64,000 nt of DNA from Prochlorococcus sp. AG-409-L18 (GTDB lineage Bacteria; Cyanobacteriota; Cyanobacteriia; PCC-6307; Cyanobiaceae), in NCBI GenBank assembly GCA_003215535.1, contig QCKG01000006.1, forward strand, positions 1 through 64,000, written 5' to 3'. Both the position numbers and the translations under genes were made by a program. The stretch's first letter is position 1; the number at the start of each line of letters is the position of its first letter. Positions 6,547 through 15,530 of the stretch are shown here, piece after piece. A model generated the notes under the pieces. The model ran no database searches and was not told the origin of the DNA. It worked only from the letters and a program-made list of their open reading frames with translations.

Positions 6547-6778
6547 ATTATTAGGTTAAATCTGAATACAATTAAATTCAAATCAACGATAAATAGCCAA
6601 ATAATAATTAAAATAATTCTGTACTGAGGATTTCTATTTAGAAAGAAAATTGTTTTATTCGATATGTTTATTAGTCAAATAATCCTTTTTAAATGTATAA
6701 ATTGTCACTTCTAGGAGTGCAAACTGATATGCAGCATAAGAAATATTGGTTTATGAATGTATAGCTATTTTTAAGTCA

Positions 6779-10025: not shown

Positions 10026-10329
10026 TCTAAATTTACTTTTATGCTTCTAATTGAAAATCTATTCCTATGTAGATCTATCTAGATTCTATAAAAAGAAATC
10101 ATTTCAACGCAGACACTATAATTATACCACTGAATCTAATTCAACATTTAAATCTAATTAATGAAATAAAATCCTAATGATTGTTAGTAACGTCTTAAAA
10201 ATATTATCAGAAAGTAACCAATGTTATTTGATCCATGTGCAAATAGAACATTAGTAATAAATGGTGTGAAGTCACGCTCCAGCAAGTGGCTATTTAAATA
10301 TGTTTGTATTGCCCTATTGCCTTTATTTC
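10026..10329. promoter_or_regulatory. 304-base gap: presumed pcb promoter/leader
   Basis: No gene is seen here. The sequence is AT-rich. TGTGA (10265-10269) and TCACG (10272-10276) form an inverted pair separated by only two bases. This resembles CRP half-sites, but the spacing is wrong for a standard CRP operator. No Shine-Dalgarno sequence precedes the GTG start of pcb. Promoter elements cannot be assigned with confidence. Confidence 0.3.
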
Positions 10330-11391
10330 GTGCAAACTTACGGGAACCCGAACGTTACCTATGACTGGTACGCGGGCAACTCAGGAACAACTAACCGCTC
10401 AGGCAAATTCATCGCAGCTCATGCAGCTCATGCCGGCTTGATGATGTTCTGGGCTGGTGCGTTTACCCTCTTTGAACTTGCTCGCTACGACCCTTCCCTA
10501 CCTATGGGAAATCAAAACCTTATTTGCTTGCCTCACTTAGCAGGCCTAGGTATTGGAGGTGTAGAAAATGGAATAATTACTGAGCCTTATGGTTGCACAG
10601 TAATCGCAGCTTTACATCTAATTTTTTCTGGTGTTTTAGGTGCGGGTGGCCTTCTTCATTCCATGAGATATGAGGGTAACCTCGGAGATTACCCAGCAGG
10701 GAGCAGACCTAAGAAGTTTGACTTTGAATGGGATGACCCAAACAGACTTACCTTCATACTCGGTCACCACCTTATTTTCCTTGGTCTTGGCAACATTCAA
10801 TTTGTTGAATGGGCAAGAGTTCATGGAATCTGGGACTCTGCCCAGGGAGTAACAAGAACTGTTCAGTACAACCTCGACTTTGGGATGATTTGGAATCATC
10901 AAGCAGATTTCCTCTCTATAAATAGTCTTGAGGATGTAATGGGTGGTCATGCGTTCCTTGCATTTTTCACCATCATTGGTGGAATATTTCACATAACAAC
11001 AAAGCAATTCGGTGAGTACACCGAATTCAAAGGTAAGGGGCTGTTATCAGCAGAGGCCGTGCTTTCCTACTCTTTAGCAGGAGTTGCATACATGGCATTC
11101 ATAGCAACTTTCTGGTGTTCTACTAACACAACTATCTATCCAACAGAACTTTATGGTGATGTTCTGAAGCTTCAATTCAACTTCGCACCGTACTTTGTAG
11201 ATACGGATACTGCCTTAGTTGGCGATGCTCACACTGCCAGAGCATGGCTATCAAACGTTCATTTCTACCTGGGATTCTTCTTCCTTCAGGGCCATTTATG
11301 GCACGCTCTAAGAGCGATGGGGTTTGACTTTAAACGTGTAGGTCAAGCGTTCGACAATATGGAAAAAGCGAAGATCACTTCTGGTAGTTAG
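10330..11391 (+). CDS. pcb: Pcb chlorophyll-binding antenna protein, probably the iron-stress/PSI type
   Basis: A 353-residue six-helix membrane protein of the CP43/IsiA/Pcb superfamily, which binds divinyl chlorophylls and feeds a photosystem. GTG 10330 is chosen because the protein then begins VQTYGNPNVTYDWYAGNSG, the standard Pcb N-terminus. Conserved His-containing helices include GKFIAAHAAHAGLMMFWAGA, PHLAGLGIG, GGHAFLAFFTIIGGIFHI and the C-terminal HFYLGFFFLQGHLWHALRA. The large lumenal loop of true CP43 is absent. In other low-light strains the iron-induced, PSI-associated Pcb lies near flavodoxin. The same arrangement here supports a PSI role by inference, but subtype needs a phylogeny. 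A terminator follows. Confidence 0.93.
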   Translation: MQTYGNPNVTYDWYAGNSGTTNRSGKFIAAHAAHAGLMMFWAGAFTLFELARYDPSLPMGNQNLICLPHLAGLGIGGVENGIITEPYGCTVIAALHLIFSGVLGAGGLLHSMRYEGNLGDYPAGSRPKKFDFEWDDPNRLTFILGHHLIFLGLGNIQFVEWARVHGIWDSAQGVTRTVQYNLDFGMIWNHQADFLSINSLEDVMGGHAFLAFFTIIGGIFHITTKQFGEYTEFKGKGLLSAEAVLSYSLAGVAYMAFIATFWCSTNTTIYPTELYGDVLKLQFNFAPYFVDTDTALVGDAHTARAWLSNVHFYLGFFFLQGHLWHALRAMGFDFKRVGQAFDNMEKAKITSGS

Positions 11392-11745: not shown

Positions 11746-11761
11746 TGTGATTTTTCTCACA
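11746..11761. promoter_or_regulatory. Perfect CRP-type operator TGTGA-N6-TCACA
   Basis: The 16-base site TGTGATTTTTCTCACA has both consensus half-sites of the E. coli CRP/NtcA-superfamily operator with the exact 6-base spacer. It lies 118 bases upstream of the ATG of a Crp-family regulator gene. Autoregulation is the simplest reading. A weaker TGTGA occurs at 11695-11699. Confidence 0.6.
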
Positions 11762-11879
11762 AATACATCGAACAACTCCTAAAAACTCGCAACAACAGTG
11801 TTGCTATTGAGAATCGCTTGCAAAAAGCGCGTTAATCGTTGTATGTTGCTTGAAGCCATCAATAGAAATCGTTTTTTAT

Positions 11880-12473
11880 ATGAGTTTTCGATTCCTGCCA
11901 GATGAACCAGTGGCAGCAGTACGAATGCCCACAGGTCAATCTGTACTTATAGACCCGACATCTCGTTCAGGAGGCTCGTGCCTTGAAGTTATTGAAGGAG
12001 TAGCCAGGGTTTATTGCCCTTGCGAAGAAACTGAGGGAATGACCCTTGCTTTCCTTCAAAAAGGAGATCAATTAAGGACTGATCGTTTATGTAGTGAAGG
12101 GGTTTGCGTTGAAGCCCTTACACCCCTTTGCTTTCGTAGTGATGCAGAGGTTTCAGATACACATGGATTTGATGCCGTCAATGAATGGACTCTTCAATTA
12201 CTTCGCATAAGACATCTAGGTAGTGCTGAACAACGTCTACAAGCATTATTTGCCCTTCTTGTTAATCGTCTAGGTAGGCGATGCGGAGACTGGTGTCATC
12301 TTCCTTTTAGGCTTACACATGAAAGGATTGGTGAACTAATAGGTTCAACTAGAGTCACCTCAACACGATTAATTTCAAGACTACGAACTGCAGATTTGAT
12401 AAATGTTCCCTCTGGTGAACCGATACTGAGACTAGCCCCTATCTTGATTGAGTCAGCACCATTAGCTGCTTAG
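11880..12473 (+). CDS. Crp/Fnr-family transcriptional regulator
   Basis: 197 residues from ATG 11880 (MSFRFLPDEPVAAVRM); the frame is open 10 codons further upstream. The N-terminal part fits a reduced cyclic-nucleotide-binding-type beta barrel. It has the short Cys-containing stretch VYCPCEETEG but no clear phosphate-binding cassette for cAMP. The C-terminal winged helix has the recognition helix region LTHERIGELIGSTRVTSTRLISRL, typical of Crp/NtcA relatives. A textbook CRP operator lies upstream. Its place between pcb and ferritin/FutC genes suggests control of the iron/redox island. The ligand is unknown. Confidence 0.88.
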   Translation: MSFRFLPDEPVAAVRMPTGQSVLIDPTSRSGGSCLEVIEGVARVYCPCEETEGMTLAFLQKGDQLRTDRLCSEGVCVEALTPLCFRSDAEVSDTHGFDAVNEWTLQLLRIRHLGSAEQRLQALFALLVNRLGRRCGDWCHLPFRLTHERIGELIGSTRVTSTRLISRLRTADLINVPSGEPILRLAPILIESAPLAA

Positions 12474-12490: not shown

Positions 12491-12778
12491 ATGAAGAAAA
12501 AAACTGAAGTTTTAACATCTGACTCCCTTATATGGAGTATTGCAAGAGAGACTGAAGCAAGTAGATATAGATGTATTGATATCATTTATTCTATCTCAAG
12601 ATGCAAAGACAACACACTAAAAATAAGGCTTAAAGAAGAACTGAAAAATCACAGGAAGCGCCAAGTAGAGCTTTTAAACATAGCCAAATTATTAAAAAGT
12701 AAAAATAGTTTCGACAAATATACAGTCTGTTTCTTACTCGAAACTTGCAAAAGATCTATCAAGCTTTATGAAAGTTAG
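12491..12778 (+). CDS. Hypothetical helical protein, 95 aa
   Basis: It starts 17 bases after the Crp-type regulator stop on the same strand and so is probably co-transcribed. The product is almost entirely charged amphipathic helix (for example LKIRLKEELKNHRKRQVELL), with three Cys residues in separate helices. There is no membrane segment. A helical-bundle protein or partner of the regulator is conceivable, but no family is recognised. Confidence 0.6.
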   Translation: MKKKTEVLTSDSLIWSIARETEASRYRCIDIIYSISRCKDNTLKIRLKEELKNHRKRQVELLNIAKLLKSKNSFDKYTVCFLLETCKRSIKLYES

Positions 12779-12828: not shown

Positions 12829-13431
12829 TTATGCCAATTGAATAGGTGGAAGTTCCTGTGTGGCAAGTTCTCCATCAATAATCAACAAAGCAGATGAACT
12901 ATTTCTAGCGAACCTAACTCTTCCTAGTAAATAAGAGAACTCATCCTCCGAGGTAAGCTGATTCTCAATAATAGGATCTAGGAAGACAGTAGTTCTAGTG
13001 TCTGAGAATCTCTCAGCCATAGAATAAATTTGATTAAGAGAGGTTGTTACATCAGTTTCCAATTGGAAGGAGGCCAATATAACTTCTTCCACTGAGTCCC
13101 AGCTTTGTGGTGGTGCTGGAATAGCTTGTAACGATGTAGGCTGAGCTCTTATAACCAGATATTCGGCAAATTTTCCTGCATGTTGTTGTTCAGAAATAGA
13201 TTCTTGCTGAAAAAATTTCGTAAATCCTCTTAAGTCTTGTTCGCAAAACCATATAGATGCAGCGAAATAAAATGCACTAGCATTTCTTTCCATAGTTAAA
13301 TGATTTTGTAGAGCCTCTAACAGGGAAGAATCCATTTGATGAGCCATGGCTCGCCCTGATGGGCCTGCTAGTGAAACTCCAGATGAGCTTTCAATAATTG
13401 GTTTCATGTCTTTAGAGTTCAACCAGGACAT
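12829..13431 (-). CDS. Second, divergent ferritin
   Basis: 200 residues; the ferritin fold starts after a 33-residue N-terminal extension. The dinuclear ferroxidase ligands are retained: E48 (TMERNASAFYFAASIW), E81 and H84 (SEQQHA), E125 (FQLETDV) and Q158 (ENQL). The third-site acids of the neighbouring ferritin are replaced: S80, N157 and S161 stand where it has Glu. M9 or M33 could be later starts. The helix spacing matches the other ferritin closely, so this is a paralogue with altered iron handling rather than a bacterioferritin. Confidence 0.85.
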   Translation of the reverse strand: MSWLNSKDMKPIIESSSGVSLAGPSGRAMAHQMDSSLLEALQNHLTMERNASAFYFAASIWFCEQDLRGFTKFFQQESISEQQHAGKFAEYLVIRAQPTSLQAIPAPPQSWDSVEEVILASFQLETDVTTSLNQIYSMAERFSDTRTTVFLDPIIENQLTSEDEFSYLLGRVRFARNSSSALLIIDGELATQELPPIQLA

Positions 13432-13571
13432 TTGGCTTGGAAGCCAACGACAATTCCGAAGGCTGTGATAAATGATACATCGCCTTTAATTTTTCAGAAA
13501 TATTTAGATAAATCGGATAAATACCACTAATATGAAAATGAATCTCATTAAAGTTCATAAGGCCTATTGCC

Positions 13572-13743: not shown

Positions 13744-14805
13744 TTAATCTAATTTACAATGAGTTGCCCCAGGGAAAAGCATAATATCAACTCCATTACG
13801 AAAATTTATTGAACATCTTTCTCCTGCTTTTATCGGATATTCAATTGGATGCCAAACCCTTAGCAGGTGACCTTCAATAGAGACTCTAAGTAACCAATGG
13901 TCACCTAAAAACTCCCTTGAATAAACCGTTGCATTTCCATTAGGAATAGACTCTATATAAATTGAATGTTCATCAAAAATCAATTCAGTTGAAGAACAGT
14001 CAGTTAAGTTTTCAGGTCGAGCGATTGAACCTATAGCAGTAATTAATTTATCTTCTGTAATATTCACTGGAAGAACATTTCTTTGAAGAACAAACCTACC
14101 TACAAAGGAAGTGGCTGGTTGTAGAACTAATTCCTTAGGGCTAGAACATTGATCTAATGATCCTTCCCGCATTACAGCAACGCGGTCACAAATTGCTAAA
14201 GCTTCTTGTGGATCATGAGTAACAAAAATGGCACTAGCTGAACATGAACTAAGTACACCAGAAAGTTCACTCCTCAATTTCTGTCTTACATCAACATCAA
14301 GATTTGAGAATGGTTCATCTAAAAGAACTAAAGAAGTACCAGGAGCCAAAGCCCTTGCTAGAGCGAGTCTCTGCCTTTGACCTCCTGAAAGCTCATGAGG
14401 GTAACGTTCACGAAAATCAGCCAACCCTAGTAATTCAAGAAGCCAAATTGCACGCTTACAATCCTGCCCACGTCTTAAACCAAAGCAAACATTTCTCCAA
14501 GCATTTAAATGTGGAAAAAGTGCATAATCTTGAAAAACCATACCAACACCCCTTCTCTCAGGAGGAATAAGTTGGTGACTATTCGCTACAAGTTGATCAT
14601 CAATCCAGATACTTCCTTTATTAGGCTTTTCAAAACCAGCAATAAGACGAAGTAAAGTTGTCTTTCCGCAACCTGAAGGACCTAATAAGCCAACTAATTC
14701 ACCATGTTGAAGATTCAAGTTTATCGACTTCAAAGACCATGAATCCAAAGGAGAAGGTGCATATTGATGCCATAGATCCCTAATTTTAAGATTGTTTATT
14801 GACAC
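13744..14805 (-). CDS. futC: Iron(III)-type ABC transporter ATPase (FutC-like)
   Basis: A 353-residue ATPase of the FbpC/FutC/PotA class. It has Walker A GPSGCGKTT, Q-loop MVFQDYALFPH, signature LSGGQRQRLALARAL, Walker B VLLDEPFSNLD and H-loop FVTHDPQEAL. A C-terminal TOBE-like region of about 110 residues follows (from RFVLQRNVLPVNI). By family it energises ferric iron uptake. The iron substrate is inferred from the resemblance and from the ferritin/flavodoxin/Pcb neighbours; other oxyanion or polyamine systems share this architecture. No clear permease gene is adjacent. Confidence 0.8.
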   Translation of the reverse strand: MSINNLKIRDLWHQYAPSPLDSWSLKSINLNLQHGELVGLLGPSGCGKTTLLRLIAGFEKPNKGSIWIDDQLVANSHQLIPPERRGVGMVFQDYALFPHLNAWRNVCFGLRRGQDCKRAIWLLELLGLADFRERYPHELSGGQRQRLALARALAPGTSLVLLDEPFSNLDVDVRQKLRSELSGVLSSCSASAIFVTHDPQEALAICDRVAVMREGSLDQCSSPKELVLQPATSFVGRFVLQRNVLPVNITEDKLITAIGSIARPENLTDCSSTELIFDEHSIYIESIPNGNATVYSREFLGDHWLLRVSIEGHLLRVWHPIEYPIKAGERCSINFRNGVDIMLFPGATHCKLD

Positions 14806-14810
14806 GTTAA

Positions 14811-15530
14811 TTATCTAGATATACTAGTCTTCAGAATTTGAGAAGACAACAATAAATCTCCCTTCGATTGAGGTAATCTCAAATCTGTTTTCTGGGGAAG
14901 AAGAGATATCCGTTTTGTAGCTATTAAGCTTATGGTCGGAATAATCGTAAATTTCATGAAGTGGGACAGCTCAAATGGAAGTAAATATTCATTTCGACAT
15001 CTGATCCCAAGATGATCAACAAAAAATTGAATGAATACAAAAAGCGACTTAAACATCAAATCCTCATCTATGGGGCAGGAGTATTTGTAAACCAATTGAA
15101 TCTGAAAAATAGAAAGACTTACCCCAAAAATAGTAAAACCTCCTGATAAACCAACCCACCTGGTTTGAGTATAACCACAAAAAGCCACAGTCAAATCTTG
15201 AAGAGTATGACCAGTCGAGCCCGTAACTCCTAAAATATTATGTTGAAAAAGCAAGAATACCGAGTTTCTATAGACTCTTGGCGGACCCACAAGAAAGGAG
15301 TGACTCAGATCAATTTGACGTGATCTTTGAAATCCTTGAACTCGTTTGTCCTTGGTAGTTGATTTAATATTCTTTGAGGCAAAGGAACATAAATTCGAAA
15401 TAATCAGTGAACTTGTATAACTAAATCCTGGAGGAGGTCTATCTATAGGAAGTTGTTCAAAATCCCTATAGAGCCAAGATTTTGGATAATGACAAGAAAA
15501 TACCAGGGAAGAAACTATCACAAGTCGCAA
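14811..15530 (-). CDS. Doubtful 239-codon open frame upstream of futC
   Basis: A 239-codon frame ends 5 bases before the FutC start on the same strand, which would suit an operon. However, it has no ATG until about residue 158 and relies on TTG or GTG starts. Composition is Ser/Phe/Leu-rich with no clear domain. It shows only short protein-like stretches such as FEQLPIDRPPPGFS and no obvious permease helices. It may be a strain-specific protein, a decayed gene, or chance. Confidence 0.35.
   Translation of the reverse strand: MRLVIVSSLVFSCHYPKSWLYRDFEQLPIDRPPPGFSYTSSLIISNLCSFASKNIKSTTKDKRVQGFQRSRQIDLSHSFLVGPPRVYRNSVFLLFQHNILGVTGSTGHTLQDLTVAFCGYTQTRWVGLSGGFTIFGVSLSIFQIQLVYKYSCPIDEDLMFKSLFVFIQFFVDHLGIRCRNEYLLPFELSHFMKFTIIPTISLIATKRISLLPQKTDLRLPQSKGDLLLSSQILKTSISR

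Follow-up and report, generated by a model that had tools for sequence, protein, structure and literature searches.

Related Regulatory Systems

Iron limits phytoplankton across large areas of the ocean, and regulators are very few in Prochlorococcus. In Synechococcus elongatus, idiA is activated by IdiB, a regulator of the Crp/Fnr type, and NtcA is known to read the GTA half-site of its targets through its recognition helix. IdiB has been named as a characterised local regulator (PMC11979508), and a Crp/Fnr gene in Trichodesmium's isiAB cluster (Tery_1663) is reported to be more than 100-fold up when iron is low (PMC12090762). The sequence reported as NtcA-specific in Prochlorococcus is GTAN8/9TAC (PMC5767323), and the published consensus for FurA of Anabaena is AAATAAATTCTCAATAAAT (PMC4788461). 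Regarding Crp itself, Xu and Su report that 17 of 29 cyanobacteria, mostly marine ones, lack crp (PMC2633013).

The locus described here lies in a window of 64,000 nucleotides, the whole stretch of Prochlorococcus DNA that was analysed, and comprises a Crp-family regulator gene preceded by the palindrome TGTGATTTTTCTCACA (Table 1). The regulator resembles IdiB in its Crp fold and iron context, the picocyanobacterial gene being found beside or near idiA/futA in several Cyanobium-type relatives, but they align over part of their length only, at about 30% identity, and the conserved cysteines of the regulator are not common to IdiB. A distant Crp homologue stands beside idiA in G046 (L198). In a phylogenetic tree the picocyanobacterial regulators formed a group separate from the idiA-linked and isi-linked homologues, with long and weakly supported deep branches, and for these reasons the protein is called here IdiB-related rather than IdiB. 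As for the Trichodesmium gene, regulators of this type also accompany isiA/isiB in G045 and G041, whereas neighbourhood and sequence have diverged; the isiA-isiB clusters of these two genomes (L200 and L203, respectively) adjoin a Crp-type regulator in the manner of the Trichodesmium cluster (PMC12090762). NtcA provides the closest solved fold, a nearly identical recognition helix and nearly the same DNA motif; the regulator nonetheless falls far below the NtcA family cut-off, carries no match to the cNMP domain and, if it is the binder, accepts GTG/CAC halves. Finally, the palindrome reproduces exactly the TGTGA-N6-TCACA of the E. coli CRP operator, but the protein is of another subclass, the link to cAMP is unsupported here and the motif is looser in relatives.

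Table 1. Features of the regulator locus and its surroundings (positions in the window).
Feature	Position	Strand	Remarks
GTATAAATTGTCAC upstream of flavodoxin isiB	6695..6708	+	Suggestive only; TATAAA is possibly a -10
Palindrome TGTGATTTTTCTCACA	11746..11761	+	Matches GTR-N8-YAC as GTG-N8-CAC; proposed site of autoregulation
Upstream arm of the promoter module	11789..11804	+	GCAACA-N4-TGTTGC here; CAACA-N6-TTGCTAT in most orthologues
TATTGAGAATCGCTTGCAA, nearly invariant Fur-box-like element of the same module	11805..11823	+	TTGCAA at 11818-11823 can act as -35
Possible -10, TATGTT	11842..11847	+	Inferred only; TATAGG/TATATG nearby in orthologues; start predicted
Crp-family regulator, 197 aa, HTH_Crp_2	11880..12473	+	No cNMP Pfam match; recognition helix STRVTSTRL
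Small ORF, 95 aa, immediately 3' of the regulator	12491..12778	+	Possibly co-transcribed; no Pfam match
Ferritin-like gene, proposed target	12829..13431	-	Start perhaps at 13407
Second motif copy TGTATCATTTATCACA	13464..13479	-	Upstream of the ferritin gene, which is convergent with the regulator
ABC transporter ATPase, proposed target	13744..14805	-	Motif conservation in relatives

The Regulator Protein

The regulator matched only HTH_Crp_2 and Crp HTH among Pfam-type families, and no match to the cNMP-binding domain was obtained, though the predicted fold is Crp-like. The nearest solved structures to the confident AlphaFold2 model (mean pLDDT 86.5) were those of NtcA. The Crp-type HTH and the modelled fold together place the protein in the Crp/Fnr superfamily. 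Its recognition helix differs from that of NtcA (STRVTVTRL) at a single residue. Scores against the NCBIfam equivalogs were low, amounting to 30 bits for NtcA (cut-off 244.95) and 39.7 bits for PtrA (cut-off 300). Two Crp-family proteins exceeded the threshold in the genome, the regulator and one NtcA-like protein, and a search covering class III adenylate cyclases (PF00211) found none in this 90%-complete genome. Across 52 aligned orthologues C46 and C71 are invariant and C48, C76, C135 and C139 nearly so; these cysteines may serve as metal or Fe-S ligands.

Crp-like frames interrupted by a single internal TGA stop were observed in several genomes (G006:C6:8863-9198, G019:C17:8235-8570 and G014:C20:11152-11388). 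In the window, an apparently degenerate ORF beside the ABC ATPase (14811-15530, minus strand) is similar to a further regulator of the Crp type; its counterpart is intact in G027, G002 and G035 (L213, L212 and L214, respectively), and the window copy is seemingly decaying.

The Palindrome and the Motif Conserved among Orthologues

The exact TGTGA-N6-TCACA that an earlier note on this DNA had placed 118 bases before the regulator ATG was found where described. A scan of the window for imperfect copies revealed no excess, with 30 matches having no more than two mismatches against 30.4 expected from shuffled sequence. Exact copies number three in the 1.78 Mb genome, about two being estimated from base composition, and the other two are both intragenic, one in a cyclophilin-like and one in a tgt-like gene; a genome-wide CRP regulon was rejected on these grounds. 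Taken by its letters alone, TGTGATTTTTCTCACA is thus not above chance, and it is position, not count, that sets it apart.

The regulator orthologues were gathered from 60 genomes and 80 named contigs, mostly of Prochlorococcus, Cyanobium and Synechococcus, and their upstream regions were compared with the most highly conserved promoter element, the TATTGAGAATCGCTTGCAA box, as anchor. Among the AT-rich (mainly Prochlorococcus) orthologues, 36 of 52 upstream regions contained GTRN8YAC within 80 bp of the box, against 1.6 +/- 1.2 in the shuffled control (maximum 7 in 1000 rounds), and all these exact matches sit at -60 to -63 or at -49/-50 relative to the box, two position classes about 11-12 bp apart, that is, about one helical turn. 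Counted at fixed position, the motif occurs in 36 of 53 AT-rich orthologues against 0.3 expected, with 28 distinct 14-mers, in sequences that are related and hence do not represent independent events. Eight of the 17 that have no exact site carry one with a single mismatch. The surrounding sequence is mostly poorly conserved; a weakly conserved position (0.83 bits) was seen 13 bases before the GTR half-site, apparently part of an AGCAC-like string in several Prochlorococcus.

The conserved form is therefore GTR-N8-YAC and not the CRP consensus proposed in the earlier note, the perfect CRP form being present, among regulator promoters, in the window only. Its perfection is a local accident, while the motif is real and its location is conserved among relatives. 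In the Cyanobium-type set the motif was found upstream of one of 43 orthologues, that one being a Prochlorococcus. The expectation that the site should precede orthologous genes thus holds for the AT-rich set and fails for the Cyanobium-type set, and autoregulation by the Crp-family protein, which fits a site at fixed spacing in the regulator promoters of related Prochlorococcus, would be lineage-specific when exerted through GTR-N8-YAC.

A Fur-Like Box in the Regulator Promoter

A stronger and nearly universal signal, missed by the earlier note, is the Fur-like box at 11805-11823, which lies about 70-80 bases ahead of the start codon in orthologues. Of 121 genomes of the family, 94 contain the exact pattern TTGAGAAN4TTGCAA, most retrieved copies sitting just upstream of the regulator, and a reversed control pattern gave only a handful of hits. 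The box shares with the cyanobacterial FurA box ten contiguous bases, TATTGAGAAT, read on the opposite strand, and like it appears to overlie the promoter; it differs in its right half, which is CTTGCAA. A further Fur-like palindrome follows the -10 in most orthologues but has decayed in the window, and one Fur-family protein was found. TGAGAATN3TTGCAA was rejected as the mark of a genome-wide Fur regulon, near matches in the window genome being mostly intragenic.

In G023, which is 99% complete and where no regulator orthologue was found, a similar box stands directly before one futA. On the strength of this single case, direct control of futA by Fur seems possible in genomes that lack the regulator. 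Opposite-strand pairs of the box, 39 bp apart and with the look of divergent promoters, were noticed elsewhere (G096:C1:697588-697643, G087:C6:51606-51661 and G127:C23:232121-232176).

Candidate Target Genes

Further copies of the motif were found ahead of iron genes. It precedes the neighbouring ferritin in 21 of 45 AT-rich relatives (2.4 expected), the ABC transporter ATPase in 15 of 39 (2.3 expected) and futA/idiA in all 13 Cyanobium/Synechococcus loci (1.1 expected), with exact TGTGAN6TCACA before futA in two relatives (L108 and L196). One of the searches for futA used a query whose last 47 residues differ from the protein of the genome itself, and of the loci it found only the upstream sequences were used. 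Sites at futA are weaker in Prochlorococcus than in Cyanobium; in G023, where no orthologue was detected, one futA still has the motif with a single mismatch. Among genomes searched for both, the neighbouring ferritin was seen only in those where the regulator, whole or as a fragment, is present as well. In G009 the genes for FutA, the regulator and the ferritin lie next to one another, and in the window genome futA is on a different contig from the regulator.

Looser sites near pcb, isiB or ferritin had also been anticipated, and this holds best for the neighbouring ferritin. Sites upstream of isiB score well by PWM in several genomes, but the support is suggestive only, as the GTATAAA found there may be a promoter -10. 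Neither pcb nor ferritin 1, the other ferritin, showed motif enrichment among relatives, and both were rejected as targets. The listed start of the pcb ORF (10300-11391) is uncertain, a protein-family match suggesting GTG 10330.

Which Protein Binds the Site

The palindrome is best explained as the operator of the iron-linked regulator of the Crp/NtcA fold, most likely binding its own promoter, a reading that we favour with some reserve. Its main rival, which we regard as unlikely, is that NtcA binds the site, linking the iron regulator to nitrogen status without autoregulation. An NtcA-like protein is encoded in the genome, the two recognition helices are nearly identical, 11 of the 37 training sites have the NtcA form GTA-N8-TAC, and the NtcA-type glnA sites GTACYYNTTGATAC contain the same TGATAC half. 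NtcA's own sites are so similar that the motif alone does not separate the two proteins. Nevertheless, the sites of the regulator promoters have GTG as left half in 20 of 37 cases and CAC as right half in 10 of 37, while every clear glnA site reads GTA..TAC, and these half-site frequencies favour the regulator as binder. The window site is itself GTG..CAC, and the motif targets are iron genes beside the regulator. The two proteins might also share the site with graded preference for GTA or GTG, making it a point of nitrogen/iron crosstalk. This agrees with the common helix and half-sites and with the free interchange of GTA/GTG and TAC/CAC among relatives, but it would predict action of the regulator at NtcA targets too, and we judge it improbable.

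The remaining two readings concern the palindrome as such. That it is functionless and due to chance would suit the frequency of exact CRP matches, which is about that expected in both window and genome, but the retention of the motif at fixed position across diverged orthologues makes this very improbable. A true cAMP-CRP operator, as the wording of the earlier note implied, draws on the perfect consensus match and is the least credible of all: a cNMP match is missing from the regulator, its recognition helix is of the NtcA type, the search of the 90%-complete genome for class III cyclases was negative, and exact sites occur genome-wide at about chance level.

Proposed Model and Implications

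In the preferred explanation, the regulator would be a Fur-repressed, iron-linked, IdiB-related member of the Crp family with an NtcA-type recognition helix, which probably binds the site and activates itself. When iron is sufficient, Fur would occupy the TATTGAGAATCGCTTGCAA box across the -35 region and hold the regulator gene off. As iron drops, Fur would leave and the regulator would be produced, its dimers then binding GTR-N8-YAC sites through the NtcA-type helix. One such site would be its own, with its centre about 55 bp ahead of the Fur-like box and about 100 bp before the predicted start, and the presence of this site in its promoter leads to the proposal that the regulator further activates its own gene. 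Others would be those before futA/idiA, the neighbouring ferritin and the ABC transporter ATPase.

What was observed is a motif that keeps a fixed position and recurs at iron genes, together with the near-universal Fur-like box, the predicted fold and the missing cNMP match; from these we infer the identity of the binder, whether it activates or represses, and that iron is the signal. Several points stand against the model: the motif resembles NtcA's own sites, 17 of the 53 AT-rich orthologues carry no exact site and the Cyanobium-type ones lack it, the motif persists in one-mismatch form at a futA of G023, and a ferritin is not an obvious gene for an activator of iron uptake to switch on in iron starvation. 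A more elaborate version is conceivable and, in our view, doubtful: a Fur-gated, self-activating switch combining direct iron or Fe-S sensing via C46, C48, C71, C76, C135 and C139, a Fur-to-Crp cascade replacing direct Fur control of iron genes, and positive autoregulation gained only in Prochlorococcus.

Taken together, the proposed operator, the regulator, its candidate set of iron targets and the upstream Fur-type box would provide a specific and checkable wiring diagram for the regulator-poor Prochlorococcus.
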